64,000 bases of DNA from Lolium rigidum (taxonomy: Eukaryota; Streptophyta; Magnoliopsida; Poales; Poaceae): contig NC_061510.1 of NCBI RefSeq assembly GCF_022539505.1, positions 38,589,047 through 38,653,046 of the forward strand. Direction: 5' to 3'. The notes beneath the pieces are model-generated. The model was not told the DNA's origin and did not search any database. It was given only the letters and a program-made list of their open reading frames with translations. The position numbers and the translations under genes are program-made. The first letter of the stretch is position 1; each line of letters opens with the position of its first letter. This document shows positions 3,227-57,873 of this stretch, piece by piece.

Positions 3227-4811
3227 TGATATGTCTCAAACGTATCTATAATTTCTTATGTTCCATGCTACTTTTATTACAATACTTGAATGTTTTATAC
3301 ATACTTTACAGCATTATTATACATTTTCCGGCACTAACCTATTAACAAGATGCCGAAGTGCCAGTTGCTGTTTTCTGCTGTTTTTGGTTTCAGAAATCCT
3401 AGTAAGGAAATATTCTCGGAATTGGACGAAATCAACGCCTAGGGACCTATTTTTACACGAAGCTTCCAGAAGACCGAGGGGGAGACGAAGTGGGGCCACG
3501 AGGTGGCGACACACCAGGGCGGCGCGACCTGGGCCCTGGCCGCGCGGCCCTGTTGTGTGAGCCTCTCGTGTCGCCCCCTGACCTACCCTTCCGCCTACAA
3601 ATAGCCTTCGTCGCGAAACCCCCCTTTACCGAGAGCCACGATACGGAAAACCTTCCAGAGATGTCGCCGTCGCGAATCCCATCTCAGGGGATTCAGGAGA
3701 TCGCCTCCGGCACCCTGCCGGAGAGGGGAATCATCACCGGAGGGGCTCTACATCATCATGCCCGCCTCCGGATTGATGCGTGAGTAGTTCATCCTTGGAC
3801 TATGGGTCCATAGCGTAGCTAGATGGTTGTCTTCTCCGCTTGTGCTATCATTGTTTTAGATCTTGTGAGCTGCCTAACATGATCAAGATCATCTATTTGT
3901 AATGCTACATGTTATGTTTGGCGGGATCCGATGAATATAGAATATTATGTTAAGTTGATTATCAATCTATCATATATGTGTTGTTTATGTTCTTGCATGC
4001 TCTCCGTTGCTAGTAGAGGCTCGGGCCAAGTTGATACTTGTAACTCCAAGAGGGAGTATTTATGCTCGATAGTGGGTTCATGCCTCCATTGAATCTGGGA
4101 CAGTGACGTAAAGTTCTAAGGTTGTGGATGTGTCGTTGCTACTAGGGATAAAACATCGATGCTTTGTCTAAGGATATTTGTGTTGATTACATTACGCACC
4201 ATACTTAATGCAATTATCTGTTGTTTACAACTTAATACCGGAAGGGGTTCGGGTGATAACCTGAAGGTGGATTATTTAGGCATAGATGCATTCTGGATAG
4301 CGGTCTATGTACTTTGTCGTAATGCCCTGATTAAATCACATAGTAATCATCATTGATATGTATTGAATCTTTATTTGTCAATTGCCCGCCCGTAATTTGT
4401 TCACCCAACATGTTAGTTATCTTATTGGAGAGACACCTCTAGTGAACTCGTGGACCCCGGTCCATTCTTTTACATCTGAATACATTCTACATCGTTTTTA
4501 CTGTTCTTTGCAAACAAACACCATCTTCCACTCGATACGCTTAATCCTTTGTTTTCAAGCAAGCCGGTGAGATTGACAACCTCACCGTTACGTTGGGGCA
4601 AAGTACTTTGATTGTGTTGTGCAGGTTCCACGTTGGCGCCGGTTTCACCGGTGTTGCGCCGCACTACATTCCTCCACCAACGACCTTCACGTGCTTCTTG
4701 GCTCCTACTGGTTCGATAACCTTGGTTTCTTTCTGAGGGAAAAACTTGCTGCTGTGCGCATCACACCTTCCTCTTGGGGTTCCCAACGGACGTGTACATT
4801 TACGCGCATCA
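3227..4811 (+). repeat. 5' LTR of the left Athila-like element
   Basis: The LTR is 1585 bp, begins TGATATGTCTCAAACG and ends GCGCATCA. It matches 9747-11334 (3' LTR) almost throughout, and 49572-51163, 56194-57786 and the reverse of 22234-23784 more distantly. Most differences from the 3' LTR fall at CAG/CTG-type sites (see findings). The short ORFs inside it are LTR noise. Confidence 0.92.
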
Positions 4812-4823
4812 AGACTGTTTTTC

Positions 4824-4841
4824 TGGCGCCGTTGCCGGGGA
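4824..4841 (+). promoter_or_regulatory. tRNA-Asp primer-binding site
   Basis: TGGCGCCGTTGCCGGGGA, 12 bp after the LTR end, is the complement of the 3' end of plant tRNA-Asp including the CCA tail. This is where minus-strand DNA synthesis is primed in many Athila-type elements. Confidence 0.88.
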
Positions 4842-5069
4842 GATCAAGACACGCTGCAAGGGGAGTCTCCACTTCCAATCTCTTTACTTTGTTTTTTTGT
4901 CTTGCTTTACTTCATTTTTTATTTACTGTCCTGTTTGCTTCATATTAAAAACACACAAAAAAATTAGTTACTTTACTTATTGTTTTGTTTACTTGTTCTA
5001 TATCAAAACACAAAAAAATTAGTTACTTGTCTTTACTTTATTTGCTTACTTTACTTTATTACTGTTATA

Positions 5070-6053
5070 ATGGGTACTCCTGAAAATACTAAGTTGTGTG
5101 ATTTCACTAGCACAAATAATAATGGTTTTATATGTACTCCTATTGCTCCACCTGCTACTACAGCAGAATTCTATGAAACTAAACCTGCTTTACTGAATCT
5201 TGTTATGAGAGAGCAATTTTCTGGTGTTAGTACTGATGATGCTGCTGCCCATCTTAATAATTTTGTTGAACTTTGTGAAATGCAAAAGTATAAGGATATA
5301 CATGGTGATATTATAAAACTGAAATTGTTTCCTTTCTCATTAAGAGGAAGAGCTAAAGATTGGTTGCTTTCTTTGCCTAAGAATAGTATTGATTCATGGA
5401 CTAAGTGTAAAGATGCTTTTATTAGTAAATATTATCCTCCTGCTAAGATTATATCTTTGAGAAGTAGCATAATGAATTTTAAACAATTTGATAATGAACA
5501 TGTTGCTCAAGCATGGGAGAGAATGAAATCTTTGGTAAAGAATTGCCCAACCCATGGACTGACTACTTGGATGATCATCCAAACCTTTTATGCAGGATTG
5601 AATTTTTCCTCGAGGAACCTATTGGATTCAGCTGCTGGAGGTACTTTTATGTCCATTACCCTGGGCGCCGCAACTAAATTACCTGATGATATGATGATCA
5701 ATTACTCTGAATGGCACACTGAAAGAACTCCTCAAGGTAAGAAGGTAAATTCTGTTGAAGAAACCTCTTCTTTGGGTGATAAGATTGATGCTATTATGTC
5801 TATGCTTGCAAATGGTAGATCTCATATTGATCCTAATAATGTTCCTTTAGCTTCATTGGTTGCTCAAGAAGAAAATGTTGATGTGAATTTCATTAAGAAC
5901 AATAATTTCAACAACAATGCTTATAGGAATAATTATGGTAACAACAACTATAGGCCATATCCTTCTAATAATGGTAATGGTTATGGTAATTCTTACAACA
6001 ATAATAAGAGTGTACCATCTGTTCTTGAAGTGATGCTTAAAGAAATTTATTAG
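5070..6053 (+). CDS. Gag of the left Athila-like element (3' end frameshifted)
   Basis: The ATG at 5070 starts a 327-codon frame with the plant retrotransposon Gag domain at about residues 40-190, including the segments FVELCEMQKYK, LFPFSLRGRAKDWL and AAGGTFM. The C-terminal part is Asn/Tyr-rich. The frame ends early because a run of A near 6042-6046 is one base longer than in the right-hand copy (near 52486-52490), where the frame reads on. I chose the ATG at 5070 over one at 4980 because the right-hand copy has its ATG at the matching place (51505). Gag would assemble the cytoplasmic particle. The frameshift may be real or a sequencing error. Confidence 0.8.
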   Translation: MGTPENTKLCDFTSTNNNGFICTPIAPPATTAEFYETKPALLNLVMREQFSGVSTDDAAAHLNNFVELCEMQKYKDIHGDIIKLKLFPFSLRGRAKDWLLSLPKNSIDSWTKCKDAFISKYYPPAKIISLRSSIMNFKQFDNEHVAQAWERMKSLVKNCPTHGLTTWMIIQTFYAGLNFSSRNLLDSAAGGTFMSITLGAATKLPDDMMINYSEWHTERTPQGKKVNSVEETSSLGDKIDAIMSMLANGRSHIDPNNVPLASLVAQEENVDVNFIKNNNFNNNAYRNNYGNNNYRPYPSNNGNGYGNSYNNNKSVPSVLEVMLKEIY

Positions 6054-7168
6054 TACACAAACTTCTTTCAATAAAACTGTTGAAGAAAAGCTTGGTAAAA
6101 TTGATGTTCTTGCTTCTAAGGTTGATAGTCTTGCTCTTGATGTTGATCTTTTAAAATTGAAAGTTATGCCTGAGGAAGTTAAAGATGCTAGGTTTTCTAA
6201 AACAAATGCCATCCAAGTTCGAATTAATGATAATATTAGAATGTTGGCTGAATTGCATGCTAGGTGGGATAGAGAAGAAAAAGAAAAACTTGCTAAAGAA
6301 AATAATGTAGCTAAAGTATGGACTATTACCACCACTAGTAATGTTGATTCTTCACATGTTGATGCACCTCCTACTATCAATGGTAAAATAATTGGTGTTG
6401 GCAATGTTTCTACTCCTAGTGCAAAGCGTACAAAATTGCTCCAAATCTGCTAAACTCGCGTTTGTGATAAAACCGCTGAAATTTTTCAAAATATTGGTGA
6501 CAATGATTCCATTGCTGTAGAACATAATGGTTTAGATTTTGATGATTGTCATATTACTGAAGTTATAAAGTTCTTACAAAAACTTGCTAGAAGTTCTAAT
6601 GCTAGTGCTATAAATTTAGCCTTTATAAAACATATTACAAATGCTCTCATTAAAGCTAGGGAAGAGAAATTAAAACTTGAAGCTTCTATTCCTAGAAAGT
6701 TAGAAGATGGTTGGGATCCCATCATTAAGATGAAATTCAATGATTTTGAGTGTAATGCTTTATGTGATCTTGGTGCAAGTATTTCTGTTATGCCTAAAAA
6801 GATTTATGATATGCTTGACTTGCCACCATTGAAGAATTGTTATTTGGATGTTAATCTTGATGATAATGTTAAAAAGAAACCTTTGGGGAGGATTGATAAT
6901 GTGCGTATTACGGTTAACAATAACCTTGTCCCCGTTGATTTTGTTGTCTTGGATATCGAATGCAATGCATCTTGTCCTATTGTGTTGGGAAGACCTTTTC
7001 TTCGAACCGTTGGTGTCTATTATTGATATGAGGGAAGGTAATATTAAATATCAATTTCCTCTCAAGAAAGGTATGGAACACTTCCCTAGAAAGAGAATGA
7101 AGTTGCCTTTTGATTCTATTATTAGAACAAGCTATGATGTTGATGCTTCTTCTCTTGATGTTACTTGA
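6054..7168 (+). pseudogene. Gag tail and retropepsin-like region, frameshifted
   Basis: Downstream of the Gag stop the coding similarity continues in other frames. A coiled, charged segment lies at 6157-6453 and a retropepsin-like domain at 6730-7026 with the motif CDLGASISVMP (the Athila-type version of the aspartic-protease DTG box) and VLGRPFLRT. The right-hand copy shows the family's natural end, ...SYDVDTSTLDVT and a stop at 53621; here the frame is broken near 7016. No reverse transcriptase, RNase H or integrase motif follows. The aspartate is present, so the protease fold may be intact where the frame is. Confidence 0.75.
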
Positions 7169-9746
7169 TTTGCACTTTCTCGCGCTAATCGGAAAGGCAT
7201 TAAAGAAAAGCACTTCTTGGGAGATAACCCATGTTTCATTTTATTTACTGTATTGTTGAGTCTTGGAAGTTGTTTACTACTGTAGCAACCTCTCCTTATC
7301 ATGTTTTTGTGCCAAGTAAAGTTTCTATGTTAAAGTTGATGATAGATTTGGATCGCCACGCGTAAACGACATTGTTGTCCGTCACGAATTCTCGGCAGAA
7401 GTCTCCGTAAAAAATCGAATAAATCTGCAAATTTACGAGCGTGATCCTCATATATGTACGCAACTTTCATTAGTTTTGAGTTTTTCCATTTGAGCAAGTT
7501 AAGTGCCCTGCCGAATTCATCTTTACGGACCGTCTCGTTTTTGATAGATTCTGTCTTTTATTTCGCATTGCCGCTTTTGCTATGTTGAATGAGTTTCTTT
7601 GTTCCATGAACTTTCAGAAGCTTTGTGCAATGTCCAGAAGTGTTAAGAATGATTGTGTCACCTCTGAATATGTGAATTTTTGGTTATGCACTAACCCTCT
7701 AATGAGTTTGCTTGAAGTTTGTGTGAAGGAAGTTTTCAAGGGTCAAGAGAAGAGGATGATATACTATGATCAAGAAGAGTGAAAGGTCTAAGCTTGGGGA
7801 TGCCCCGTGGTTCATCCCTGCATATTTTAAGAAGACTCAAGCATCTAGCTTGGGGATGCCCAAGGCATCCCCTTCTTCATCGACAACATTATCGAGTCAC
7901 TTCTAGTGAAACTATATTTTTATTCCATCACATCTTATGTTCTTTACTTGGAGCGTCGGTTTGTTTTTATTTTTGTTTTGGTTTGAATAAAGTTGGATCC
8001 CACCATCCTTATATTGGAGATATTACGCTCGCTTTTTCATATGGAACACTTGTGTTCTTAATTGTGCTTTAATGTTCATGGCGAAGGCTGAAATTGCTTC
8101 GTTAAATTGCTATTTGGTTGGAATCGCAAAATGCTGCATATGGTTTGGATTAACTTGGCAATTGTTTGAGCTCTCATAGATCATGTTTCAGCTCTTGCAT
8201 CATGTAGTTTAATCTATTAATGAAGAACTACCGTAGCTTGTTTAATTTGGTTTGCATGATTGATCTCTCTAAGTCTAGATATTTTCGGGTAAAATGTTTG
8301 AACAACAAGGAAGACAGTGTAGAGCCTTATAATGCTTGCAATATGTTCTTGTGTGATTTTTGCTGTACCTGTTCATACTTGTGTTTGCTTCAAACAACCT
8401 TGCTAGCCCAAACCTTGTACTGAGAGGAAATGCTTCTCGTGCATCCAAACACCTTGAGCCAAAACCCATGCCATTTGTGTCCACCATATCTACCTACTAT
8501 GTGGTATTTTTCTGCCATTCCAAAGTAAATTACTTGAGTGCTACCTTTAAAATTTCATTCCTCTACCTTTACAATACATAGCTCATGGGACAAATAGCTT
8601 AAAAACTATTGTGGTGATGAATATGTAGTTATGTGTCTTAATTCTTATAAGTTGCTTGTTGAGCGGTAACCATGTTTCTGGGGACGCCATCAACTTTACC
8701 TTTGTTGGATATCATGTGAGATGCTATGCATGTTCGTCTTGTCCGAAGTAAGTGCAATTTCATGATCAAATGGTTTGAGTATGCATATGTTAGAGAAGAA
8801 CATTGGGCCGCTAACTAAAGCCATGTATCATGGTGGAAGTTTCAGTTTGGACATACAACCTCAATCTCTTATGAGAATATTAACTGTTGTTGAATGCTTA
8901 AGCATTAAAAGAGGAGTCCATTATCTCGTTGTCTATGTTGTCCCGGTATGGATGTCTAAGTTGAGAATAATCAAAAGCGAGAAATCCAATGCGTGCTTTC
9001 TCCTTAGACACTTGTACAGGCGGCATAGAGGTACCCCTTTGTGACACTTGGTTGAAACATATGTTATGCGATGATAATCCGTGTCTTCCGAGCTAAGTAG
9101 GACAAGGTGCGGGCACTATTAGTACTCTATGCATGAGACTTGCAACTTGTAGGAAGTATTATGCATAGCACATATGAATTATTACTACCGTTGACAAAAT
9201 TGTTTCTATGTTTTCAAAACAAAAGCTCTAGCACAAAAATAGTAATCCATGCTTCCTTCTGCGAAGGGCCATTCTTTTACTTTATGTTGAGTCAGTTTAC
9301 CCACTTCTTTCTATCTTAGAAGCAAACACTTGTGTTAACTGTGTGCATTGATTCTTACATGTTTACTTATTGCACCTGTTATATTACTCTATGTTGACAA
9401 ATATCCATGAGATATACATGTTACAAGTTGAAAGCACTCGCTGAAACTTAATCATCCTTTGTGTTGCTTCAATTCATTCTACTTAGAATTTATTGCTTAC
9501 GAGTTAGTTCTTATGCAGCTCTTATTGATACTTGTCTTGAAAGTACTATTCATGAAAAGTTTTGCTATATGATTAATTTGTTTAGTCATTATCTTTGTTA
9601 GCAATCTTTTGTTCAGATCACTCCATTCATCTCATATGCTTTACAATAATGTTGATCAAGATTATGTTGGTAGCATGTCACTTCGAAATTATGTGTGTTA
9701 TCGTTTACCTACTCGAGGGCGAGTAGGAACTAAGCTTGGGGATGCT
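7169..9746 (+). other. Non-coding 3' half of the left Athila-like element, with polypurine tract
   Basis: This 2.6 kb has no sense ORF of note. It contains three copies of the purine-rich motif AAGCTTGGGGATGC or a close variant (about 7791, 7850 and 9732); the last abuts the 3' LTR at 9747 and is the likely plus-strand primer. The same layout recurs at 53622-56193. The antisense ORF seen in other copies (minus strand, around 7340-7600 here) is broken by several CAG/CTG-type changes. Confidence 0.7.
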
Positions 9747-11334
9747 TGATACGTCTCAAACGTATCTATAATTTCTTATGTTCCATGCTACTTTTATTAC
9801 AATACTTGAATGTTTTATACATACTTTACAACATTATTATACATTTTCCGGCACTAACCTATTAACAAGATGCCGAAGTGCCGATTCGTTGTTCTCGCTG
9901 TTTTTGGTTTCAGAAATCCTAGTAAGGAAATATTCTCGGAATTGGACGAAATCAACGCCTAGGGACCTATTTTTACACGAAGCTTCCAGAAGACCGAGGG
10001 GGAGACGAAGTGGGGCCACGAGGTGACAACACACCAGGGCGGCGCGGCCTGGGCCCTGGCCGCGTGGCCCTGTTGTGTGGGCCCCTCGTGACGCCCCCTG
10101 ACCTACCCTTCCGCCTACAAATAGCCTTCGTCGCGAAACCCCCTGTACCGAGAGCCACGATACGGAAAACCTTCCAGAAACCCCGCCGTCGCGAATCCCA
10201 TCTCGGGGGATTCAGGAGATCGCCTCCGGCACCTCGCCGGAGAGGGGAATCATCACCAGAGGGGCTCTACATCATCATGCCCGCCTCCGGATTGATGCGT
10301 GAGTAGTTCATCTTTGGACTATGGGTCCATAGCAGTAGCTAGATGGTTGTCTTCTCCGCTTGTGCTATCATTGTTTTAGATCTTGTGAGCTGCCTAACAT
10401 GATCAAGATCATCTATTTGTAATGCTACATGTTGTGTTTGGCGGGATCCGATGAATATAGAATATTATGTTAAGTTGATTATCAATCTATCATATATGTG
10501 TTGTTTATGTTCTTGCATGCTCTCTCGTTGCTAGTAGAGGCTCTGGCCAAGTTGATACTTGTAACTCCAAGAGGGAGTATTTATGCTCGATAGTGGGTTC
10601 ATGCCTCCATTGAATCCGGGACAGTGACGTAAAGTTCTAAGGTTGTGGATGTGCTATTGCTACTAGGGATAAAACATCGATGCTTTGTCTAAGGATATTT
10701 GTGTTGATTACATTACGCACCATACTTAATGCAATTATCTCGTTGTTTACAACTTAATACCGGAAGGGGTTCGGATGATAACCTCGAAGGTGGATTATTT
10801 AGGCATAGATGCATGCCTGGATAGCGGTCTATGTACTTTGGCGTAATGCCTTGATTAAATCACATAGTAATCATCATTGATATGTATTGAATCTTTATTT
10901 GTCAATTGCCCGCCTCGTAATTTGTTCACCCAGCATGTTAGTTATCTTATTGGAGAGACACCTCTAGTGAACTGTGGACCCCGGTCCATTCTTTTACATC
11001 TGAATACATTCTACTCGTTTTTACTCGTTCTTTGCAAACAAACACCATCTTCCACTCGATACGCTTAATCCTTTGTTTTCAGCAAGCCGGTGAGATTGAC
11101 AACCTCACTGTTACGTTGGGGCAAAGTACTTTGATTGTGTTGTGCAGGTTCCACGTTGGCGCCGGTTTCACTCGTGTTGCGCCGCACTACATTCCTCCAC
11201 CAACAACCTTCACGTGCTTCTTGGCTCCTACTGGTTCGATAACCTTGGTTTCTTTCTGAGGGAAAAACTTGCTGTTGTGCGCATCACACCTTTCTCTTGG
11301 GGTTCCAAACGGACGTGTACATTTACGCGCATCA
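9747..11334 (+). repeat. 3' LTR of the left Athila-like element
   Basis: The 1588-bp LTR begins TGATACGTCTCAAACG, ends GCGCATCA, and is followed directly by the target duplication GGGTG at 11335-11339. See the 5' LTR for the comparison. Confidence 0.92.
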
Positions 11335-14152: not shown

Positions 14153-15832
14153 TAACTGCTGAAATTTTTCAAAATATTGGTAACAATGATTCCATTGCTG
14201 TAGAACATAATGGTTTAGATTTTGATGATTGTCATATTACTGAAGTTATAAAGTTCTTACAAAAACTTGCTAGAAGTCCCAATGCTAGTGCTATAAATTT
14301 AGCCTTTACAAAATATATTACAAATGCTCTCATTAAAGCTAGGGAAGAGAAATTAAAACTTGAAGCTTCTATTCCTAGGAAATTAGAAGATGGTTGGGAG
14401 CCCATCATTAGGATGAAATTCAATGATTTTTAGTGTAATGCTTTATGTGATCTTGATATTTAGTATTTCTGTTATGCCTAAAAAGATTTATGATATGCTT
14501 GACTTGCCACCATTGAAGAATTGTTATTCGGATGTTAATCTTGCCGATAATGTTAAAAAGAAACCTTTGGGGAGGATTGATAATGTTCGCATTACGGTTA
14601 ACAATAACCTTGTCCCCGTTGATTTTGTTGTCTTGGATATCGAATGCAATGCATCTTGTCCTATTGTGTTGGGAAGACCTTTTCTTCGAACCGTTGGTGT
14701 CTGTTATTGATATGAGAGAAGGTAATATTAAATATCAATTTCCTCTCAAGAAAGGTATGGAACACTTCCCTAGAAAGAGAATGAAGTTGCCTTTTGATTC
14801 TATTATTAGAACAAGTTATGATGTTGATGCTTCTACTCGATGTTACTTGATTTGCACTTTCTGCGCCTAGCTGAAAGGCGTTAAAGAAAAGCACTTCTTG
14901 GGAGATAACCCATGTGTTTATTTTACTACAGCAATTTTTGTTTTGTTGAGTCTTGGAAGTTGTTTACTACTGTAGCAACCTCTCCTTATCATGTTTTTGT
15001 GCCAAGTAAAGTTTCTATACTAAAGTTGATGTTATATTTGGGATCGCTGCGCAGAAACAGCATTGCTGTCTGTCACGAATTCTGGCACAAGTCTCTGTAA
15101 AAAATTCAAAAAAATCTGCAAATTTACGAGCGTGATCCTCAGATATGTACGCAACTTTCATTAGTTTTGAGTTTTTCCATTTGAGCAAGTTAGGTGCCCA
15201 GTCCAGAAGCATCTTTACGGACTGTTCTGTTTTTGAAAGATTCTGTCTTTTATTTCGCATTGCCGCTTTTGCTATGTTGAATGAGTTTCTTTGTTCCATT
15301 AACTTTCAGAAGCTTTGTGCAATGTCCAGAAGTGTTAAGAATGATTGTGTCACCTCTGAATATGTGAAATTGTGGTTATGCACTAACCCTCTAATGAGTT
15401 TGCTTGAAGTTTATGTGAAGGAAGTTTTCAAGGGTCAAGAGAAGAGGATGATATACTATGATCAAGAAGAGTGAAAGGTCTAAGCTTGGGGATGCCCCGG
15501 TGGTTCATCCCTGCATATTTTAAGAAGACTCAACCATCTAAGCTTGGGGATGCCCAAGGCATCCCCTTCTTCATCGACAACATTATCAGGTCACTTCTAG
15601 TGAAACTATATTTTTATTCTGTCACATTCTTATGTTCTTTACTTGGAGCGTCGGTTTGTTTTTATTTTTGTTTTGTTTTGAATAAATTTGGATCTCGCCA
15701 TCCTTATATTGGAGATATTACGCTCCGCTTTTTCATATGGAACACTTGTGTTCTTAATTGTGCTTTAATGTTCATGACGAAAGCTTATTGCTTCGTTAAA
15801 TTGCTATTTGGTTGGAATTGGAAAATGATGCA
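14153..15832 (+). mobile_element. Internal fragment of a third Athila-like copy, same strand
   Basis: The sequence matches about 6469-8100 of the left element from the end of Gag through the retropepsin-like domain (MPKKIYDMLDLPP at about 14474) to the double AAGCTTGGGGATGCC block (15482, 15541). It has no LTR at either end. The left edge abuts a truncated Gypsy LTR; the right edge abuts an inverted copy of the same 3' region at about 15833 with only a few bases of shared sequence (CATAT). The retropepsin motif is damaged near 14455-14465, where the region coding for the catalytic aspartate is rewritten. A relic of rearrangement, not an insertion with intact ends. Confidence 0.72.
15015..15299 (-). 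CDS. Antisense 94-codon ORF in the 3' region of an Athila-like copy
   Basis: On the strand opposite to gag-protease an uninterrupted frame of 94 codons begins MEQRN, has the core LLKWKNSKLMKVAYISEDHARK and a Cys-rich tail DRQQCCFCAA, and ends at 15015. The copy at 53781-54065 has a frame of the same length, start and end with about 20 substitutions. I do not recognise a protein family. The protein would be basic and small. Antisense ORFs have been described in other plant Gypsy lineages (Ogre/Tat), so function is possible but unproven; conservation could also reflect a constrained nucleic acid on the sense strand. Confidence 0.35.
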   Translation of the reverse strand: MEQRNSFNIAKAAMRNKRQNLSKTEQSVKMLLDWAPNLLKWKNSKLMKVAYISEDHARKFADFFEFFTETCARIRDRQQCCFCAAIPNITSTLV

Positions 15833-16342
15833 TATTCAGAGATGACACAATCAGTCTTAACACTTCTGGACATTGCTCAAAGCTTCTGAAAGTTAATGGA
15901 ACAAAGAAACTCATTCAACATAGCAAAAGCGGCAATGCGAAATAAAAGGCAGAATCTGTCAAAAATAGAACAGTCCGTAAAGACGAATCTGGCAGGGACA
16001 CTTAACTTGATTAAACGGAAAAAACTCAAAACTAATGAAAGTTGCGTACATATATGGGGATCACGCTCGTAAATTTTCAGATTTTTTCGGTTTTTTTACA
16101 GAGAGCTCTGCGAGAATTCGTGACAGACAGCAATGCTGTTTCTGCGCAGCAATCCAAATATAGCATCAACTTTAGCATAGAAACTTTACTTGGCACAAGG
16201 TTGCTACAGTAGTAAACAACTTCCAACTTTCCAAGACTCAACAATACAGTAAATAAAATAAAACATGGGTTATCTCCCAAGAAGTGCTTTCTTTATAGCC
16301 ATTAAGATGGGCTCAGTAATTTCGATGATACTCTCGCAAGAA

Positions 16343-22204: not shown

Positions 22205-22222
22205 TCCCCGGCAACGGCGCCA
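22205..22222 (-). promoter_or_regulatory. tRNA-Asp primer-binding site (inverted element)
   Basis: The minus strand reads TGGCGCCGTTGCCGGGGA, 11 bp after the LTR end, identical to the site at 4824-4841. Confidence 0.88.
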
Positions 22223-22233
22223 GAAAAAGTGCT

Positions 22234-23784
22234 TGATGCGCGTAGATGTACACGTCCGTTGGGAACCCCAAGAGGAAGGTATGATGCTCACAGCGGCAAT
22301 TTTTTCCTCAGAAAGAAACCAAGGTTATCGAACCAGTAGGAGCCAAGAAGCACGTGAAGGTTGTTGGTGGAGGAGTGTAGTACGGCGCAACACCAGTGAA
22401 ACCGGCGCCAACGTGGAACCTGCACAACACAATCAAAGTACTTTGCCCCAACGTAACAGTGAGGTTGTCAATCTCACCGGCTTGCTGAAAACAAAGGATT
22501 AAATTTATCGAGTGGAAGATGGTGTTTGTTTGCAAAGAACAGTAAGAACAGTAGAAGGTATTCAGATGTAAAAGAATGAACCGGGGTCCACTGTTCACTA
22601 GTGGTGTCTCTCCAATAAGATAACTAACATGCTGGGTGAACAAATTACAGGCGGGCAATTGACAAATAAATATTCAATACATATCAATGATGGTTACTAT
22701 GTGATTTAATCAGGGCATTACGACAAAGTACATAGACCGCTATCCAGCATGCATCTATGCCTAAATAATCCACCTTCAGGTTATCATCCGAACCCCTTCC
22801 AGTATTAAGTTGTAAACAACAGATAATTGCATTAAGTATGGTGCGTAATGTAATCAACACAAATATCCTTAGACAAAGCATCAATGTTTTATCCCTAGTA
22901 GCAACAGCACATCCACAACCTTAAAACCTTCTGTCACGATCCCAGATTCAATGGAGGCATGAACCCACTATCGAGCATAAATAGGAGTTACAAGTATCAA
23001 CTTGGCCAGAGCCTCTACTAGCAACGGAGAGCATGCAAGAACATAAACAACACATATATGATAGATTGATAATCAACTTAACATAATATTCTATATTCAT
23101 CGGATCCCGCCAAACACAACATGTAGCATTACAAATAGATGATCTTGATCATGTTAGGCAGCTCACAAGATCTAAACAATGATAGCACAAGCGGAGAAGA
23201 CAACCATCTAGCTACTGCTATGGACCCATAGTCCAAGGATGAACTACTCACGCATCAATCCGGAGGCGGGCATGATGATGTAGAGCCCCTCCGGTGATGA
23301 TTCCCCTCTCCGGCAGGGTGCCGGAGAGCGATCTCCTGAATCCCCCGAGATGGGATTCGCGGCGGCGGCGTCTCTGGAAGGTTTTCCGTATCGTGGCTCT
23401 CGGTACAGGGGGTTTCGCGACGAAGGCTATTTGTAGGCGGAAGGGTAGGTCAGGGGGCGGCGCGAGGGGCCCAGACCACAGGGCCGCGCCGCCCTATGGT
23501 TTGGCCACCTCGTGGCCCCACTTCGTTATCCCTCCGGTCTTCTGGAAGCTTCATGGAAAAATAGGACCCTGGGCGTTGATTTCGTCCAATTCCGAGAATA
23601 TTTCCTTACTAGGATTTCTGAAACCAAAAACAGCAGAAAACAACAACTGACACTTCGGCATCTTGTTAATAGGTTAGTGCCGGAAAATGTATAATAATGC
23701 TGTAAAGTATGCATAAATCATTCAAGTATTGTCATAAAAGTAGCATGGAACATAAGAAATTATAGATACGTTTGAGACGTATCA
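22234..23784 (-). repeat. 5' LTR of the inverted Athila-like element
   Basis: This 1551-bp LTR reads TGATACGTCTCAAACG from 23784 on the minus strand and ends GCGCATCA at 22234. It is closest to the LTRs at 3227 and 9747. The next base to the right (23785) is Harbinger transposase. Confidence 0.9.
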
Positions 23785-35124: not shown

Positions 35125-38100
35125 TCAAGTTACATCAAGGGCGATCAGCTCCAACACGCAGGGAGGAGCTGCATCAAAAAGTAAACCAGAAAACCCTGAC
35201 TTGCCTAACTGAGCTAGAACATGGGCTACACCATTACACACCCTATCAATTTTAGAGATCGAGATATCCTGATAAATATGTAACAACTCTCGGGCTTCAG
35301 CCATTAGAGCCCATCCTCCTGAATGGTCATCCATGGAGCCAGAGATAGTTTGAACAATACGAAGACAATCAGATTCCAGGATCGCAGGCCAGCGACCCAA
35401 ATCTATCAAATGCTTCAAACCAGCTAACAAGGCCAGCAATTCCGCTTGTTCAGCAGTGGCACATGCAGTAACAAATCTCCATTCAGATAAGATAGTCCTT
35501 CCACTACTGTCTCTAATAATAATTCCAAGGCCAGCCGTCTTTGATGTACTGTCCCATCCAGCATCCACATTGGCTTTCACAAAACCCTCCGACGGGGCTG
35601 TCCACGAGGTAATACCCAGAGGACCCGCATTAGATATAGGAGCCGAAGTGTCAATAGAAGTCTGAGTGAAGGATAGATGATAGCTAACAAGATAGGATAC
35701 CGAGGCAGAAATCGAAGCTTTACCGTCTCCATGAACCACGTTATTTCTGTGGTGCCAAACCCGCCATAGCAAAAAGATAACCTTAGACCTCATAGATTTT
35801 GAAATACCCTCCAAGAGATGAAGTAGCCATTCTTTCCCCGTATATTGGAATGACTCCTCAGGTGGGAGATGCCAGTGGCTTCTCAGTTCATGTCGCAGAG
35901 CTCTAGCAAGGGTGCAACGAACAAGAGCATGGAAACCATCCTCTACCTCGCAACCGCAGATAGCACAGACCGGGGTGACCGATGGCATTCGCCGGTGTAG
36001 ACCAGAACGGACAGCCAAGGTGGCAGTAGCCGCCTTCCAGGCAAAGATGCGAACCTTTTGGGGTACTTCCGCCTTCCAAATTAGATTCCAAATGCCACGT
36101 TCGCCCACTGATTCCGATGAACTTTGTCCTGGGTTCACACTCAAGAGAGCTGATTGCATGCCTAGGCGATACGCCGATCTGACAGAGAACGAGCCGTTAC
36201 TTTCGCCGCTCCAAGCAACAAAATCCTCACATGCCCTAGCAGGGATCTTGATCGATAGGATAGTTTCAGCATCCCATGGGTAAAAAATTGCGCGGATAGT
36301 CTGTTCGTCCCAAGTCCTTGAAACAGGATCAATAAGCTCTGATACCCACTTTTTCCTTGAATTACTACGCCGACCATCCACCTTCATAGCATCCTGTCTA
36401 GGTAACCAGTTATCACGGAATATTTTCACTTTACTTCCCGATCCAATGCGCCAGATCACACCTTTCTTCAGTAATTCTAAGCCATGTAGAACTCCCTGCC
36501 ATGTTTGGGATTGATTTTGAATAAAGGCTGTGTCAAGTAAATCCCCTGTAGGATAATACCTAGCTTTAAGCAAACGAGCACACAGGCTATCCGGGTACTG
36601 AATTAGCCTCCATGCTTGCCTTGCAAGTAGTGCTTGATTAAAAATACGGAGGTCCCTGAAGCCCATACCGCCACATGATTTTGGTCTTGTAATTTTATCC
36701 CAGGACATCCAATGCATTCTTCTTCGGTCCTCCTCATCTCCCCACCAAAAATTCCGAATAATCTGAGACAAATCCTCAATAAGCCCATAGGGAAACTTGA
36801 ACACTCCCATAGCATATGTAGAGATGGACTGAAGAACTGATTTAATAAGGATTTCCTTTGCACCAGAGGACATGTACTTTTCACACCAATCAGTAGCATG
36901 TTTTGAGAATTTTTCTTTTGTAGATTTGAACTTTCCTTTTTTTAATCTCCCTTCAGGAACTGGTAGCCCAAGGTATTTTTCTTCGAAGCAAACAGTATCA
37001 TACTTCAGGATTCCTTTTAATTCCGATTGCACCTCAGGGGAGCATTTATCTCCGTACATGATTGAACATTTTCCCAAACTCACCAACTGTCCAGTTCCTT
37101 GCTCATATTTATCCAGAATAGATTTGATCACCATACCTTGATCAACGGTTCCCTCAAAGAATAACAGACTGTCATCTGCAAACAGCAGATGAGAAATACC
37201 TGGAGCTCTTCGGCATATATGAAATTCACGGAGAGCATTGCACTCTATTTCCTTCCTAATCAGGCAGGATAAACCATCAGCCACAAAGAGAAATAAGTAT
37301 GGAGAAAGAGGATCACCTTGGCGGATACCGCGGGATGGGGTGAAAGGGTCCAACATATTTCCGTTAAAGCGAATCGAGAATCGCACAGTGGTGACACACG
37401 CCATCACCCACCGTATCCATTGTCTATGAAAGCCCAACTTCGCTAAAACCCCTTCGAGAAAACTCCAGTCCACTCGATCATACGCCTTGGCTAAATCCAA
37501 TTTATACGCACAAAAATTCCTCCGTGCCGCTGAACCCGATTGAATAGAATGAATACACTCAAAAGCCATGAGTGCATTATCAGTTATAAGACGTCCAGGG
37601 ATAAAGGCACTTTGGGTCGGCGAAATTATGTCTTGCAAGATAGGACGAAGCCGATTCACGAGGCACTTAGATATCACTTTGAAGATCACATTACATAAAC
37701 TTATTGGACGAAAATCCTTCAGTTCCTCTGGGTCATTCTTTTTAGGAATTAAGACAATCGCAGTGTCATTGACCTCTGCAGGCATAATACCATCATGGAA
37801 AAAACGCTGCACCGCCTTGACAATATCATCACGCAACAGGCCCCAATTCCGCTGAAGAAAACGTGCAGGAAAACCATCAGGCCCGGGAGCTTTAAGGGGA
37901 CCAATTTGGAAGAGAGCATCACCGATCTCTTTTTCAGAAAACGGGGCACACAAGTCTGCATTCATGTCATCAGTAATACACCGGTCAAGCAGCCCCGTTA
38001 TAATATCCGGGTTTATGTTCTCATCTTTAGCGTAGAGGTCTTGGAAAAAATCCCTAGCCATATTCTCCATCTCAACAGTGTCAGACGTCCAAGTACCGTC

Positions 38101-39243
38101 ACTTCTTTTCAGCTTGCGGATACTATTCTTTTTCTTCCTCCAAGATGCTCTTCGGTGGAAGTACTTTGTGTTCTTATCTCCTTCGCGGAGCCAGGCAATA
38201 CGGGAACGTTGCATCCAGAAAATTTCCTCACGATAGAGGAGTTCATCCATCTCTTTTTCAAGCCCCACCCTCTTAAGAACACTCTCTGCATCATTGAATT
38301 GGCGCAGATTATCAAGCAACTCCCTCTTCTTTTCAATCTCTTTTGGTATAGATTTAAACTTCGTGTGCTTCCAGCTATACAGACTAGACATCATCAAGCG
38401 GAGAGACGCAGAAACATCCCCCAGATCATTGCACGGGACACGGCGGGACCAGGCTTCCTCTACAGCAGCCGGCAGGGAAGGTTCCCTCTCCCACACAATC
38501 TCATATCTTCTCACAGGACGCTCACACCGACAGTTGGTCGCATTTTCGATGGATAGCAGAATAGGGCAGTGGTCCGACCGAGAGGAGGCAATATGCCTCA
38601 GCCGATGATCTGGGAACATACGAGACCACTCCGTAGAAGCAACCGCACGGTCAAGCCGGACTCTGACATTGCGATCACCTTTCTGCTTGTTATCAAAAGT
38701 CCAGGGGTTGCCCACAAATCCAATATCATATAAGTCACAGTGAGACAGAACTTCTCTGAAATCCATCATAAGTCTCTCAGAGCGGGGGGTACACGAGAAG
38801 TGCTCCTCCTGCCACATAGCTTCATTAAAATCGCCCATCATAAGCCAAGGCTTACTAGAATTGTCTTTGATCTGTCGCAACTTAGTCCACATAAGATGAC
38901 GATCCACTGGTTTCGGTTCTCCGTAGACAAAAGTAGCTCTCCACATGTGATCATAAGGGCCACCGCTAACGTGAACATCAATATGGCGTTTACTGAAAGA
39001 CAGAAGATCAACAGTAACATCTTCCATCCAATATAGGGCAATGCCGCCTCCTTTTCCATCTCCAGAAACTTGGTAGCAGTGTTTCATACCAATTCTATAG
39101 CGGAGATTCTCCACTCTTTCCTTACTCTGCCTCGTCTCGCAGATGAAAACGAGGCTGGGCTTGTAGGTCTGCACTAGGCAGACGAGTTCTTGAACGGTCG
39201 CAGCTTGCCCGATGCCACGACCATTCCAGCCTAAGGTCGTCAT
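35125..39243 (-). CDS. LINE ORF2: endonuclease, reverse transcriptase and RNase H, 1372 aa
   Basis: This protein nicks target DNA and copies the element RNA at the nick. An apurinic-type endonuclease occupies about residues 1-230, with GDFNE near 137 and SDHCPI near 222. Reverse transcriptase follows at about 440-760, including the catalytic FADD box at about 688-691. A zinc-binding reverse-transcriptase-associated domain lies near 1050-1115 (CAICGCEVEDGFHALVRC). A C-terminal RNase H domain at about 1220-1350 has NVDAGW near 1225, AEQAELLAL, ESDCLRIV and the AHVLAQ segment. The C-terminal RNase H is found in some plant L1 clades. The ATG at 39243 overlaps the ORF1 stop as ATGA. No stop or frameshift is seen, so the enzyme may be active. 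Confidence 0.95.
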   Translation of the reverse strand: MTTLGWNGRGIGQAATVQELVCLVQTYKPSLVFICETRQSKERVENLRYRIGMKHCYQVSGDGKGGGIALYWMEDVTVDLLSFSKRHIDVHVSGGPYDHMWRATFVYGEPKPVDRHLMWTKLRQIKDNSSKPWLMMGDFNEAMWQEEHFSCTPRSERLMMDFREVLSHCDLYDIGFVGNPWTFDNKQKGDRNVRVRLDRAVASTEWSRMFPDHRLRHIASSRSDHCPILLSIENATNCRCERPVRRYEIVWEREPSLPAAVEEAWSRRVPCNDLGDVSASLRLMMSSLYSWKHTKFKSIPKEIEKKRELLDNLRQFNDAESVLKRVGLEKEMDELLYREEIFWMQRSRIAWLREGDKNTKYFHRRASWRKKKNSIRKLKRSDGTWTSDTVEMENMARDFFQDLYAKDENINPDIITGLLDRCITDDMNADLCAPFSEKEIGDALFQIGPLKAPGPDGFPARFLQRNWGLLRDDIVKAVQRFFHDGIMPAEVNDTAIVLIPKKNDPEELKDFRPISLCNVIFKVISKCLVNRLRPILQDIISPTQSAFIPGRLITDNALMAFECIHSIQSGSAARRNFCAYKLDLAKAYDRVDWSFLEGVLAKLGFHRQWIRWVMACVTTVRFSIRFNGNMLDPFTPSRGIRQGDPLSPYLFLFVADGLSCLIRKEIECNALREFHICRRAPGISHLLFADDSLLFFEGTVDQGMVIKSILDKYEQGTGQLVSLGKCSIMYGDKCSPEVQSELKGILKYDTVCFEEKYLGLPVPEGRLKKGKFKSTKEKFSKHATDWCEKYMSSGAKEILIKSVLQSISTYAMGVFKFPYGLIEDLSQIIRNFWWGDEEDRRRMHWMSWDKITRPKSCGGMGFRDLRIFNQALLARQAWRLIQYPDSLCARLLKARYYPTGDLLDTAFIQNQSQTWQGVLHGLELLKKGVIWRIGSGSKVKIFRDNWLPRQDAMKVDGRRSNSRKKWVSELIDPVSRTWDEQTIRAIFYPWDAETILSIKIPARACEDFVAWSGESNGSFSVRSAYRLGMQSALLSVNPGQSSSESVGERGIWNLIWKAEVPQKVRIFAWKAATATLAVRSGLHRRMPSVTPVCAICGCEVEDGFHALVRCTLARALRHELRSHWHLPPEESFQYTGKEWLLHLLEGISKSMRSKVIFLLWRVWHHRNNVVHGDGKASISASVSYLVSYHLSFTQTSIDTSAPISNAGPLGITSWTAPSEGFVKANVDAGWDSTSKTAGLGIIIRDSSGRTILSEWRFVTACATAEQAELLALLAGLKHLIDLGRWPAILESDCLRIVQTISGSMDDHSGGWALMAEARELLHIYQDISISKIDRVCNGVAHVLAQLGKSGFSGLLFDAAPPCVLELIALDVT

Positions 39244-40430
39244 TGGGCCCGGCGGTCCTCCTCGAGGGAAGCCGCCGATTTTGCCAAATCATTATCAGAA
39301 GTGTCAGTCTTCCGTAGCTTAGTACGATCCCGGGGGTTGACGTAGCCTGGAGGTGGAGGTGGGACAGACAAGTCCCCCAATTCAGCGCCAGGAATGGTTG
39401 TTCCCGGCCTAGCATCCCCCAGGACCCCCATATCCAGTTGCTTTTTAGCCGCTGCAGCTTCATGATCATTCTTATCTTCATCCATGTGAGCCGTTTTTTC
39501 AGGACTTGTTGCAGAATCCTCCAAATCCTCCGTGTTATCTAGAGCAGCATCTTGAGACGAGCGTTTTTTTGCCGAAGTTTTCAGTCCCCCATGGCCAGAG
39601 AAACCCCCACGGGTAGGCTCACGAGGGGTACGTCGCTGTTCCATGTTTTGAAGGTTACTTCTCCTAGTGGCAAGCATCCAGCTCCCATATTGAAGATCCT
39701 TGGCCTCCCATGCCCCATCACCACACTCCTCGTGGTCATGCCCGAGGAGGCCGCAATGCTTACAGAAATATGGGATTTTTTCATACTTAACCGGCAGCCT
39801 CTTTCTCCCTTCTCCTTCAATCATAAGAGATACAAAACGCATCAAAGGTTTGCCAACATCAATTAAAACCCGCAGGCGCACATAATTCCCCTCAAAATAC
39901 AGCTTTGGATTCATCTGAACCTCTTTAGTCTTGCCAATCTTCCGAGCGAGATCATCTAGGACATTAGTTTTCCGATAAAGCTCTGGGATACCATGAATCT
40001 GCGCCCATATATATAAACCATTGAAAGGTATCTTCTCAGGATCCTCTTTGCCATCATAATCCTCGATCAAAACAGCCCAGCCACGAAAGGTCCATGGCCC
40101 TTGGTGGACAACTTTCTTCCAATCTCCAAGGCAATGCATCTGGAAGATGAACAGGTTTTCCCCTGCCTCCCTGCAGGTTGGATCCTTGGAGAGATTCCAA
40201 ATCGCTTTCATCTTGCCAAATAAAGCTTCTGAACTAAACGAACGAGTAGTGTGCACTTTACCGATTGCTAACCAACGAGCGTCCTTCTGGAACTCCTTCA
40301 CAGCATCAACCGCGATCACCACATCATCCAGTTCATCTTCCCGGAGCTCCAGGTGAGCCAGCATGTCGTCCAGATCCTCTTCTTTCCCCGTCATCGCTGG
40401 CGACGAAGAAGAAGCCTGAAGATCCGTCAT
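39240..40430 (-). CDS. LINE ORF1: DUF4283 / CCHC zinc-knuckle RNA-binding protein, 396 aa
   Basis: Nucleic-acid chaperone and particle protein of the LINE. The start MTDLQASSSS at 40430 is preferred over an in-frame ATG at 40514, because the upstream 28 codons are low in family resemblance; either is possible. A DUF4283-type domain fills about residues 25-190 (WNLSKDPTCREAGENLFIFQ, GPWTFRGWAVLIED, NPKLYFEGNYVRLRVLIDVGKP). A zinc knuckle CX2CX4HX4C (CKHCGLLGHDHEEC) lies at about 223-236. The charged, Ser/Pro-rich tail ends at 39240. Its stop overlaps the ORF2 start by two bases, suggesting reinitiation for ORF2. Confidence 0.92.
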   Translation of the reverse strand: MTDLQASSSSPAMTGKEEDLDDMLAHLELREDELDDVVIAVDAVKEFQKDARWLAIGKVHTTRSFSSEALFGKMKAIWNLSKDPTCREAGENLFIFQMHCLGDWKKVVHQGPWTFRGWAVLIEDYDGKEDPEKIPFNGLYIWAQIHGIPELYRKTNVLDDLARKIGKTKEVQMNPKLYFEGNYVRLRVLIDVGKPLMRFVSLMIEGEGRKRLPVKYEKIPYFCKHCGLLGHDHEECGDGAWEAKDLQYGSWMLATRRSNLQNMEQRRTPREPTRGGFSGHGGLKTSAKKRSSQDAALDNTEDLEDSATSPEKTAHMDEDKNDHEAAAAKKQLDMGVLGDARPGTTIPGAELGDLSVPPPPPGYVNPRDRTKLRKTDTSDNDLAKSAASLEEDRRAQ

Positions 40431-40815
40431 CGCCGAAACCCTAGATGTACGACCAGGAAGGTATACAAGAGGCGGGGAACACGGAAAGACACAGATGCGG
40501 ATGCGGGGGTACACAGGCGTGGGATGGGTGGAGAAAGCTCGAAGAATTGATGGGAATCGAAACCGATCTCACGGAGGCGACGGAAATCGCCCACCGGAGC
40601 ACAAAACCCTAACGAGAGGGTACGGAGCTAAAAATTCTTCTTACTTCTACGGCATGTTGTCTACCTGCTCGGCATGAAGCAATCCTGGTGATGCGCGCAG
40701 CGGGGACAAGGGCGACGGGTTTGTTTGATCTCTTCAATCATGGAGCATCATGGTGTCGTCGCGTACGCCCGTGCTAGCTGCTGCGTCCGGACAGGGTTAA
40801 GAAGCCAAGAAATTT

Positions 40816-49571: not shown

Positions 49572-51251
49572 TGATACGTCTCCAACGTATCGATAATTTC
49601 TTATGTTCCATGCTACTTTATTGATGATACCTACATGTTTTATGCACATTATATGTCATATTTATGCATTTTCTGGAACTAACCTATTAACAAGATGCCG
49701 AAGAGCCAGCTTGTCGTTTTCTGCTGTTTTTGGTTTCAGAAATCCTAGTAAAGAAATATTCTCGGAATTGGACGAAACTTTCGCCCAGGGTCCTATTTTT
49801 GCACGAAGCTTCCAGAAGACCGAAGAGATAACGAAGTGGGGCCACGAGGCAGCCAGGGGCTAGGGCGGCGCGGCCCAAGCCCTGGCCGCGCCGACCTACC
49901 CCCTAGGCCCCTCGTGTGGCCCCCCGCGTTGACCCTCCGCCTACTTAAAGCCTCCGTCGCGAAACCCCCAGTACCGAGAGCCACGATACGGAAAACCTTC
50001 CAGAGACGCCGCCGCCGCGAATCCCATCTCGGGGGTTTCTGGAGATCGCCTCCGGCACCCTGCCGGAGAGGGGATTCATCTCCCGGAGGACTCTACACCG
50101 CCATGGTCGCCTCCGGAGTGATGAGTGAGTAGTTCACCCCTGGACCATGGGTCCATAGCAGTAGCTAGATGGTCGTCTTCTCCTTGTTGTGCTTCATTGT
50201 TGGATCTTGTGAGCTGCTTAACATGATCAAGATCATCTATCTGTAATACTATATGTTGTGTTTGTCGGGATCCGATGGATAGAGAGTACTATGATTATGG
50301 TGATTATCAATCTATTGTTTATGTGTTGTTTATGATCTTGCATGCTCTCCGTTATTAGTAGAGGCTCGGCCAAGTTTTTGCTCTTAACTCCAAGAGGGGG
50401 TATTTATGCTCGATAGTGGGTTCATGCCTTCATTGAATCGGGATCGTGACGAGAGAGTTCTAAGGTTGTGATGTGCTGTTGCCACTAGGGATAAAACATT
50501 GATACTATGTCTAAGGATGTAGTTGTTGATTACATTACGCACCATACTTAATGCAATTGTCTGTTGCTTAGCAACTTAATACGGAATGGGGTTCGGATGA
50601 TAACCTGAAGGTGGACTTTTTAGGCATAGATGCAGTTGGATGGCGGTCTATGTACTTTGTCGTAATGCCCAATTAAATCTCACTATATTTATCATATCAT
50701 GTATATGCATTGTTATGCCTTTCTCTATTTGTCAATTGCCCGACTGTAATTTGTTTACCCAACATGCTTTTATCTTATGGGAGAGACACCTCTAGTGAAC
50801 TGTGGACCCCGGTCCTATTCTTTACATAGCATACAATCTACTGCAATTGTGTTTTACTGTTTTCTTTGCAAACATCTTCCACTCGATACGTTTAATCCTT
50901 TGTTACGACAAGCCGGTGAGATTGACAACCTCACTTGTTTCGTTGGGGCAAAGTACTTTGGTTTTGTTGTGCGAGATTCCACGTTGGCGCCGGAATCCCT
51001 GTTGTTGCGCCGCATCACATTTCGCCACCATCAACCTTCAACGTGCTTCTTGGCTCCTACTGGTTCGATTAAACCTTGGTTTCATACTGAGGGAAACTTG
51101 CTTCTATACGCATCATACCTTCCACTTGGGGTTCCCAACGGACGTGTGCATCTATGCGTATCAAGCTAAATTTCTGGCGCCGTTGCCGGGGATCTGAAGA
51201 AAAGTTACACCACAAAGATTTCTAACTCCCACGTCAACTACACGCCGAGCA
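49572..51251 (+). repeat. 5' LTR of the right Athila-like element, with internal primer site
   Basis: It begins TGATACGTCTCCAACG. The position matching the end of the left element's LTR is 51163 (GCGTATCA); the LTR then runs a further 88 bp, through TGGCGCCGTTGCCGGGGA at 51175-51192, to CACGCCGAGCA at 51251. Confidence 0.88.
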
Positions 51252-51504: not shown

Positions 51505-52590
51505 AATGAATACCCCTGAAAATACTAAGTTGTGTGACTTCACAAATGCAAATAATAATGATTTCCTATGCACACCTATTGCTCCACCTGCTACTACAGA
51601 CGAGAATTCTTTGAAATTAAACCTGCTTTCTTGAACCTGGTTATGAGAGATCAATTTTCTGGTGTTAGTTCTGATGATGTTGCTGCCCATCTTAATAATT
51701 TTGTTGAACTTTGTGAAATGCAAAAGTATAAGGATGTAGATGGTGATATTATTAAATTGAAAGTGTTTCCTTTCTCATTAAGAGGAAGAGCTAAAGATTG
51801 GTTGCTATCTTTGCCTAAGAATAGTATTGATTCATGGACTAAATGCAAGGATGCTTTTATTGGTAGATATTATCCTCCCGCTGAAATTATATCTTTGAGA
51901 AGTAGCATAATGAATTTTAAACAATTAGATACTGAACATGTTGCTCAAGCATGGGAGAGAATGAAAACTTTGGTAAAGAATTACCCAACCCATGGACTGA
52001 CTACTTGGATGATCATCCAAACCTTCTATGCAGGACTAAATTTTTCTTCGCGGAATTTATTGGATTCAGCTGCTGGAGGTACCTTTATGTCCATCACATT
52101 GGGGGCGGCTACAAAACTTCTTGATGATATGATAATAAATTACTCTGAATGGCACACGGAAAGAGCTCCACAAGGTAAGAAGGTAAATTCTGTTGAAGAA
52201 ACCTCTTCCTTGAGTGATAAGATTGATGTGATTATGTCTATGCTTGTGAATGGTAGATCTAATGTTGATCCAAATAATGTTCCTTTAGCTTCATTGGTTG
52301 CTCAAGAAGAAAATGTTGATGTGAATTTCATTAAAAATAATAATTTCAACAACAATGCTTATAGGAACAACTCCGGTAATAACTATAGGCCATATCCTTC
52401 GCTAATGGTAATGGTTATGGTAATTCTTATGGGAATTCTTACAATAATAATAGGAATGTACCCTCTGGTCTTGAAGCTATGCTTAAAGAATTTATTAGTA
52501 CACAAACTGCTTTTAACAAATCTGTTGAGGAAAAGCTTGATAAAATTGATACTATTGCTTCTAGAGTTGATAGACTTGCCTCTGATGTAA
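51505..52590 (+). pseudogene. Gag of the right Athila-like element, frameshifted
   Basis: The ATG at 51505 (MNTPENTKLCDF) matches the Gag start of the left copy. At about 51597-51604 extra bases (ACAGACGAG where the left copy has ACAGCAG) shift the frame; the long ORF from 51568 then carries the Gag domain (FVELCEMQKYK, FPFSLRGRAKDWL) up to about 52395, where another shift occurs in the Asn-rich tail. The coding continues in another frame at 52479-52910. Both breaks sit at or near CAG-type sites, so they may be sequence errors. Confidence 0.75.
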
Positions 52591-56193: not shown

Positions 56194-57873
56194 TGATACG
56201 TCTCCAACGTATCGATAATTTCTTATGTTCCATGCTACTTTATTGATGATACCTACATGTTTTATGCACATTATATGTCATATTTATGCATTTTCCGGAA
56301 CTAACCTATTAACAAGATGCCGAAGAGCCGATTCGTTGTTTTCGCTGTTTTTGGTTTCAGAAATCCTAGTAAAGAAATATTCTCGGAATTGGACGAAACT
56401 TTCGCCCGGGGTCCTATTTTTGCACGAAGCTTCCGGAAGACCGAAGAGATAACGAAGTGGGGCCACGAGGCAGCCGGGGGCTAGGGCGGCGCGGCCCAAG
56501 CCCCGGCCGCGCCGACCTACCCCCTAGGCCCCTCGTGTGGCCCCCGCGTTGACCCTCCGCCTACTTAAAGCCTCCGTCGCGAAACCCCCGGTACCGAGAG
56601 CCACGATACGGAAAACCTTCCGGAGACGCCGCCGCCGCGAATCCCATCTCGGGGGATTCGGGAGATCGCCTCCGGCACCCTGCCGGGAGAGGGATTCATC
56701 TCCCGGAGGACTCTACACCGCCATGGTCGCCTCCGGAGTGATGAGTGAGTAGTTCACCCCTGGACCATGGGTCCATAGCAGTAGCTAGATGGTCGTCTTC
56801 TCCTTGTTGTGCTTCATTGTTGGATCTTGTGAGCTGCTTAACATGATCAAGATCATCTATCCGTAATACTATATGTTGTGTTTGTCGGGATCCGATGGAT
56901 AGAGAGTACTATGATTATGGTGATTATCAATCTATTGTTTATGTGTTGTTTATGATCTTGCATGCTCTCCGTTATTAGTAGAGGCTCTGGCCAAGTTTTT
57001 GCTCTTAACTCCAAGAGGGGGTATTTATGCTCGATAGTGGGTTCATGCCTTCATTGAATCCGGGATCGTGACGAGTAGGTTCTAAGGTTGTGATGTGCTT
57101 GTTGCCACTAGGGATAAAACATTGATACTATGTCTAAGGATGTAGTTGTTGATTACATTACGCACCATACTTAATGCAATTGTCTGTTGCTTAGCAACTT
57201 AATACTGAATGGGGTTCGGATGATAACCTGAAGGTGGACTTTTTAGGCATAGATGCGGTTGGATGGCGGTCTATGTACTTTGTCGTAATGCCCAATTAAA
57301 TCTCACTATATTTATCATATCATGTATATGCATTGTTATGCCTTTCTCTATTTGTCAATTGCCCGACTGTAATTTGTTTACCCAACATGCTTTTATCTTA
57401 TGGGAGAGACACCTCTAGTGAACTGTGGACCCCGGTCCTATTCTTTACATAGCATACAATCTACTGCAATTGTGTTTTACTGTTTTCTTTGCAAACATCT
57501 TCCACTCGATATGTTTAATCCTTTGTTACAGCAAGCCGGTGAGATTGACAACCTCATCTGTTTCGTTGGGGCAAAGTACTTTGGTTTTGTTATGCGGATT
57601 CCACGTTGGCGCCGGAATCCCCGTTGTTGCGCCGCATCACATTTCGCCACCATCAACCTTCAACGTGCTTCTTGGCTCCTACTCGGTTCGATTAAACCTT
57701 GGTTTCATACTGAGGGAAACTTGCTTCTATACGCATCATACCTTCCACTTGGGGTTCCCAACGGACGTGTGCATCTACGCGTATCAAGCTAAATTTCTGG
57801 CGCCGTTGCTGGGGATCTGAAGAAAAGTTACACCACAAAGATTTCTAACTCCCACGTCAACTACACGCCAGCA
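56194..57873 (+). repeat. 3' LTR of the right Athila-like element, with internal primer site
   Basis: It begins TGATACGTCTCCAACG at 56194 and ends CACGCCAGCA at 57873, directly before ATCTC. The internal primer-like site is at 57798-57815 (GTTGCTGGGGA where the 5' LTR has GTTGCCGGGGA). Confidence 0.88.

Follow-up and report, generated by a model that had tools for sequence, protein, structure and literature searches.

CG-bearing changes at CAG/CTG sites in Lolium rigidum retrotransposon copies most likely reflect basecalling errors

Elements in the window

The window analyzed here is a stretch of 64,000 nt of Lolium rigidum (contig NC_061510.1, 38,589,047-38,653,046, forward strand). Self-comparison identified two LTR retrotransposons in it, A and C, which come from related families that are ~84% alike by this measure, the likeness at element level being put elsewhere at about 86%. 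Their LTR probably resembles that of a grass retrotransposon. A further LTR copy (B), a fragment (F) repeating part of the internal region, and a LINE used as an internal control complete the set of elements compared (Table 1). A domain search of the LINE showed that one of its frames contains endonuclease, reverse transcriptase, zf-RVT, and RVT_3 domains.

The window also holds a 285-codon ORF with a Plant_tran / DDE_Tnp_4 transposase domain (26130-26987, plus strand). Self-comparison further showed a tandem array with shifts of ~50 and ~100 bases together with a direct repeat of ~0.7 to 0.8 kb (18318-18815 and 43276-44797), and, adjoining fragment F, inverted copies of ~0.5 kb that are ~86% alike (14858-15364 and 15831-16319).

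Table 1. Elements compared in the window, and positions near which former CAG/CTG sites carry CG-bearing forms
Feature	Position	Strand	Basis	CG-bearing forms near
Element A, 5' LTR (A5)	3227..4811	+	alignment of five LTRs	3814, 4022, 4133, 4238, 4390, 4447, 4585 (from the polarised test, not the CG-form rule), 4648
Element A, 3' LTR (A3)	9747..11334	+	alignment of five LTRs	9882, 9895, 10234, 10616, 10739, 10783, 10914, 11025, 11171
Element A, internal part common to F and C	6471..8141	+	three-copy comparison	
Fragment F, copy of that internal region	14154..15835	+	window self-comparison	
LTR copy B	22205..23784	-	window self-comparison, five-LTR alignment	
LINE, two open frames (1372 and 424 codons)	35125..40514	-	internal control	
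Element C, 5' LTR (C5)	49572..51251	+	alignment of five LTRs	50367, 50582, 50906
Element C, 3' LTR (C3)	56194..57873	+	alignment of five LTRs	56329, 56407, 56434, 56503, 56621, 56862 and 57257 (both judged from the sister LTR alone), 57621, 57682
Gag-like ORFs	4980-6053 and 51568-52590		Pfam Retrotrans_gag	
Quoted sequence pairs, as located	4216/10737, 4258/10780, 50632/57255, 49810/56431, 49880/56501, 51058/57680, 5160/51596			

Differences between sister LTRs

The sequence-only reading of this DNA had proposed that a large share of the differences among LTR copies turn CTG into CCG or CTCG, and CAG into CGG or CGAG, and had quoted seven sequence pairs as examples. All seven were recovered, at offsets of 0 to 11 bases from where that reading had placed them; the seventh (5160/51596) is present but weaker as evidence, since it compares two different elements (~86% alike). 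The proposed share holds up in the two LTR pairs, where 33 of 73 difference events are of this kind and random placement would give ~4. By an automatic rule that ignores direction and also picks up some deaminations, CAG/CTG is exchanged for a new CG in 14/42 events of pair A and 19/31 events of pair C. In 60 random simulations per pair, each with as many substitutions, transitions, and one-base indels as the pair itself, such events averaged 2.3 (maximum 8) for pair A and 1.6 (maximum 6) for pair C. Indels show the same excess (4/9 in pair A and 4/8 in pair C, null means 0.27 and 0.23, respectively).

The alignments add a form missing from the original list, namely a length-neutral swap of CTG to TCG and of CAG to CGA. 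The strand symmetry pointed out in the earlier reading is correct, but it carries little weight as evidence, since each triplet is simply the other read from the opposite strand.

Direction of change at CAG and CTG

To polarise the differences, we treated a trinucleotide as ancestral when the sister LTR had it in common with one or more further copies, and scored the state of the focal copy in the four LTRs of the two pairs. The resulting table of trinucleotide contexts is far from even: CAG/CTG sites had changed in 28 of 80 cases, compared with 182 of 4956 in all other contexts (Fisher p about 2e-19; the polarised p-values are approximate, as one agreeing outgroup copy sufficed and adjacent trinucleotides share a change). 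Both strand forms are affected (CAG 10/24, CTG 18/56; 35% together). The next most changed context is CCG/CGG (17/151), and further contexts include CAA/TTG (8/222) and CTT/AAG (1/167). The differences are thus concentrated on one short methylation-target motif, as expected of nanopore errors at 5-methylcytosine.

At CAG/CTG the changes mostly gain a CG, in 21 of the 28 changes and hence at 21 of the 80 sites. These CG-bearing derived forms are CGG (5), CTCG (4), CCG (4), CGA (3), TCG (3), and CG (2), and the seven derived forms lacking CG are CAA (2), TTG (2), CTT, CAAG, and CTTG. Length is altered in 8 of the 28. Transitions in the CWG core account for seven changes, four of CTG to CCG and three of CAG to CGG, and this T-to-C and A-to-G direction is the same as in the E. 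coli rRNA genes described below and in the nanopore discrepancies of PMC6703438.

Deamination would change C to T, lose a CG or a C, and keep length, which is not the behavior seen at CAG/CTG. It is consistent with 14 of the 17 seen at CCG/CGG, where any C-to-T or G-to-A change is found at 14/151 sites and the specific step from CCG/CGG to CTG/CAG at 6/151. Some ordinary deamination is therefore also present among the LTR copies.

Affected and clean copies

Counted by a CG-form rule, the proportion of testable CAG/CTG sites bearing CG forms was 7/23 in A5, 7/22 in A3, 3/15 in C5, and 7/20 in C3, compared with 0/17 in copy B (Fisher p 0.01 against the 24/80 that these four LTRs give together). 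This 24/80 and the polarised 28/80 rest on different testability rules, and their equal denominators are a coincidence.

The internal region is uneven as well. CAG/CTG sites are altered at 12/22 in element A, 0/10 in fragment F, and 1/11 in element C; the difference between F and A is significant (p 0.004), F being testable at the 10 sites on which A and C have stayed in agreement, which are not the 12 altered in A. In the stretch common to A, F, and C, the rate of change is highest at CAG/CTG (12/32 vs 149/2481 elsewhere), with all 12 changes in A, seven of them bearing CG and five without it. Affected patches in element A look local. We also note that nine of its 12 altered internal sites lie within the 180-base stretch 7356-7535. 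When A was compared directly with C over the internal region, a comparison that at ~86% identity cannot be polarised, one of 40 one-base indels was of the CTCG type, which lends no support to element-wide insertions. Motif counts in 2-kb bins showed nothing decisive.

The LINE had been described in the sequence-only reading as having clean ORFs, and this is borne out: both frames are open across 187 CAG/CTG sites with zero frameshifts, an outcome with a chance of about 3e-9 at the length-change rate of the LTRs (8/80). This control covers length changes, same-length changes being invisible there without a second copy. The CDC48 frame, likewise called clean, was seen as a single ORF carrying AAA and CDC48_2 domains.

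Because B, F, and the LINE are clean, the effect follows particular copies and not the motif alone, and it is patchy. Differences in the affected LTR pairs beside clean B, F, and LINE sequences form the pattern that would be expected if the error is confined to near-identical repeats. The clean copies fit correction where reads can be placed uniquely, as would presumably be the case for them.

At a number of ancestral CAG/CTG sites in the five-LTR alignment, two or more copies have changed, in part to different forms. Column 1187 reads CCG in A5 and CTCG in A3; column 801 reads CGG in A5 and CG in C5; column 1453 reads CCG in A5 and C3 and CTCG in A3; and column 136 reads CGA in A3 and likewise in C3, a copy from the other family. 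The CTCG forms at columns 999, 1044, and 1514 each occur in a single copy of the five. A misreading that tends to strike the same site repeatedly could easily yield such coincidences.

Dcm sites in E. coli rRNA genes

Dcm in E. coli methylates the second C of CCWGG, and the rRNA genes of this species are near-identical repeats of known sequence. Damaged assemblies did not stand out in a full-length 23S search sampled at evenly spaced rows, and we used targeted queries instead, each with a single altered CTG. They were run against 20,395 RefSeq E. coli records, and five of these searches matched 5382 records apiece. At the 16S Dcm site CTG 797, CCG was found in 43/5382 records (40 among the matches listed, each full length), CTCG in 3/5382, and TCG in 4/5382. 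The non-Dcm CTG at 316, queried with CCG and with CTCG, gave 0/5382 records for each. At another Dcm site (985), a query for exactly CTCG, with a flank that varies among strains, gave 0/5381 records.

Five operons hand-picked from the hits with an altered form at 797 were aligned with K-12. Dcm CCWGG sites were altered at 47/70, compared with 16/755 for other CAG/CTG sites, and at 42/65 when the selection site was left out. CG is present in 43 of the 47 altered Dcm forms, which include CCGGG (10), CCTCGG (7), CCCGG (7), and CCGAGGG, CCGAG, and CTCGG (one each). Of the columns that differ from K-12, 72 fall within Dcm motifs, which span far fewer bases, and 290, including 94 gaps, fall elsewhere; these operons therefore also contain errors of another kind or true differences between strains. 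The rRNA genes of these five E. coli RefSeq loci (L002-L006), from ‘complete’ genomes, carry extra bases beside the altered Dcm sites, and in L003 the 16S and 23S genes measure 1554 and 2918 bases, compared with 1542 and 2904 in K-12.

A unique 4.2-kb flank compared with K-12 in two of the records differs at 1/22 Dcm sites, in an ordinary C-to-T form, and has no gaps, whereas the rRNA genes of the same two records are altered at 13/28 (p 0.001). Since Dcm sites are altered in rRNA and the flank is clean, E. coli reproduces both halves of the pattern, namely errors at 5-methylcytosine in a CWG core and their retention in repeats, in records whose read type is not given.

Origin of the changes

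The CG-bearing forms are very probably consensus errors and not mutations. Their likeliest source is nanopore basecalling at methylated CHG, with the resulting artefact kept in repeats beyond the reach of polishing. The pattern is real in the sequence and most likely absent from the plant DNA. The sequence-only reading had suggested a basecaller misreading methylated CHG, and the direction test, the fingerprint at E. coli Dcm sites, and published nanopore errors all support it.

In the chain of events we envisage, the source would be native-DNA nanopore reads, and the basecaller, probably trained on DNA with 5-methylcytosine mainly in CG, would have come to expect CG. CAG/CTG sites that are presumably methylated, as plant CHG, may then be misread as CG-containing forms, CTG as CCG, TCG, or CTCG and CAG as CGG, CGA, or CGAG. 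If the basecaller takes 5-methylcytosine as a sign of CG, the called sequence would mostly contain CG, whether by substitution, swap, or insertion; this step from training bias to CG-bearing products we infer. The consensus would retain the error because the same misreading recurs in read after read. Later correction, on the polishing history that we suppose, would reach uniquely mappable sequence such as genes, the LINE, and diverged or truncated copies, and closely similar LTR copies would escape it.

Methylcytosine deamination, by which an ancestral CCG/CGG became CTG/CAG in one copy and was kept in the other, draws on the abundance of methylated CG and CHG in plant repeats, and CCG/CGG is indeed the second most changed context (17/151, 14 of them C-to-T or G-to-A). 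As the main cause it is rejected by the direction test, in which CG is gained and not lost at CAG/CTG: gains there (21/80) far exceed steps from CCG/CGG to CTG/CAG (6/151). The earlier reading had argued that deamination could give the substitutions but not the inserted base, and CTCG, CG, and the swapped forms are indeed not single deaminations. The bias is moreover absent from copies B and F, and we consider this explanation very improbable.

A real plant mutational process, unknown so far, that converts CAG/CTG into CG forms with insertions in active retrotransposon copies would accord with a strong bias located in two elements with paired LTRs. We know of no process that does this, however, and the same forms appear at Dcm sites of E. 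coli, chiefly in rRNA repeats, while sister LTRs carry different forms at one site, as at column 1187; the idea seems extremely unlikely. Equally hard to credit is the view that related LTR families have diverged in the ordinary way, or exchanged sequence by gene conversion, and that the eye took the result for a pattern. With families A and C ~84% alike, some of the differences must be genuine, but the bias is strong inside the LTR pairs of one element (19/31 events in pair C), and the trinucleotide-context table disfavors this reading. Gene conversion also lacks a source, as the CTCG forms at columns 999, 1044, and 1514 are each unique to one of the five copies, and no sampled copy could therefore have donated them.

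Implications

Such errors, if unnoticed, distort work on plant repeats. Artefact-type events make up 14/42 and 19/31 of the differences in the LTR pairs, so insertion ages based on LTR divergence would come out too old; CHG and CG counts in young elements would be off, and reading frames could appear broken. The fingerprint, in which one copy gains CCG, TCG, or CTCG at CTG, or their reverse complements, can be scanned for in any assembly and could serve as a rapid quality check. Some RefSeq ‘complete’ E. coli genomes carry it in their rRNA genes. Because the miscalls mostly contain CG, it is also conceivable, though we hold this tentatively and as somewhat less than an even prospect, that CCG, TCG, and CTCG, where unpolished repeats of a public plant assembly retain them, give a site-by-site footprint of methylated CHG in the sequenced plant.

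Comparison with known systems

Motif-bound nanopore errors are best documented at Dcm sites. According to PMC6703438, A-to-G misreads made up 68.0% and 72.3% of the discrepant variants in nanopore data from two isolates, and T-to-C misreads 29.7% and 20.8%; Dcm sites accounted for nearly all of them. PMC6591954 places ~70% of Klebsiella consensus errors from then-current ONT basecallers in Dcm motifs and states that taxon-trained models removed nearly all of them. PMC8235852 gives 401 shared SNPs (A to G in 187, T to C in 203; 98% at the Dcm motif), and the differences left over lay mainly in rRNA and insertion sequences, where polishing with short reads could not settle them.

The pattern in the window resembles these Enterobacteriaceae errors at CC(A/T)GG in its T-to-C and A-to-G changes in the middle of a CWG core that carries 5-methylcytosine there and presumably here, and the bacterial errors likewise leave residues in repeats, namely rRNA genes and insertion sequences, after short-read polishing. 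It differs in that the motif here is any CAG/CTG (plant CHG) and not CCWGG. Insertions and swaps are plain in the window, whereas the Dcm papers, in the text accessible to us, describe transitions; at Dcm sites insertions and swaps come from our own E. coli alignment.

Two further cases lie near. In Listeria, PMC10687267 describes motif-bound errors at GCAGC/GCTGC and GCTGG, consensus mismatches that are likewise explained by short motifs with a CWG core; this case is bacterial, and its authors suspect novel modifications. The literature searched, in which few subscription journals were covered, yielded no description of a motif-level error at plant CHG. The main text of PMC9749173 does not use the term CHG or describe a motif-level pattern, which sets it apart from the window. 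It does, however, name methylation patterns unlike the training data as a likely cause of the lower accuracy of nanopore reads from plants with generic basecallers. The probable artefact is of a known kind, found here at plant CHG sites.
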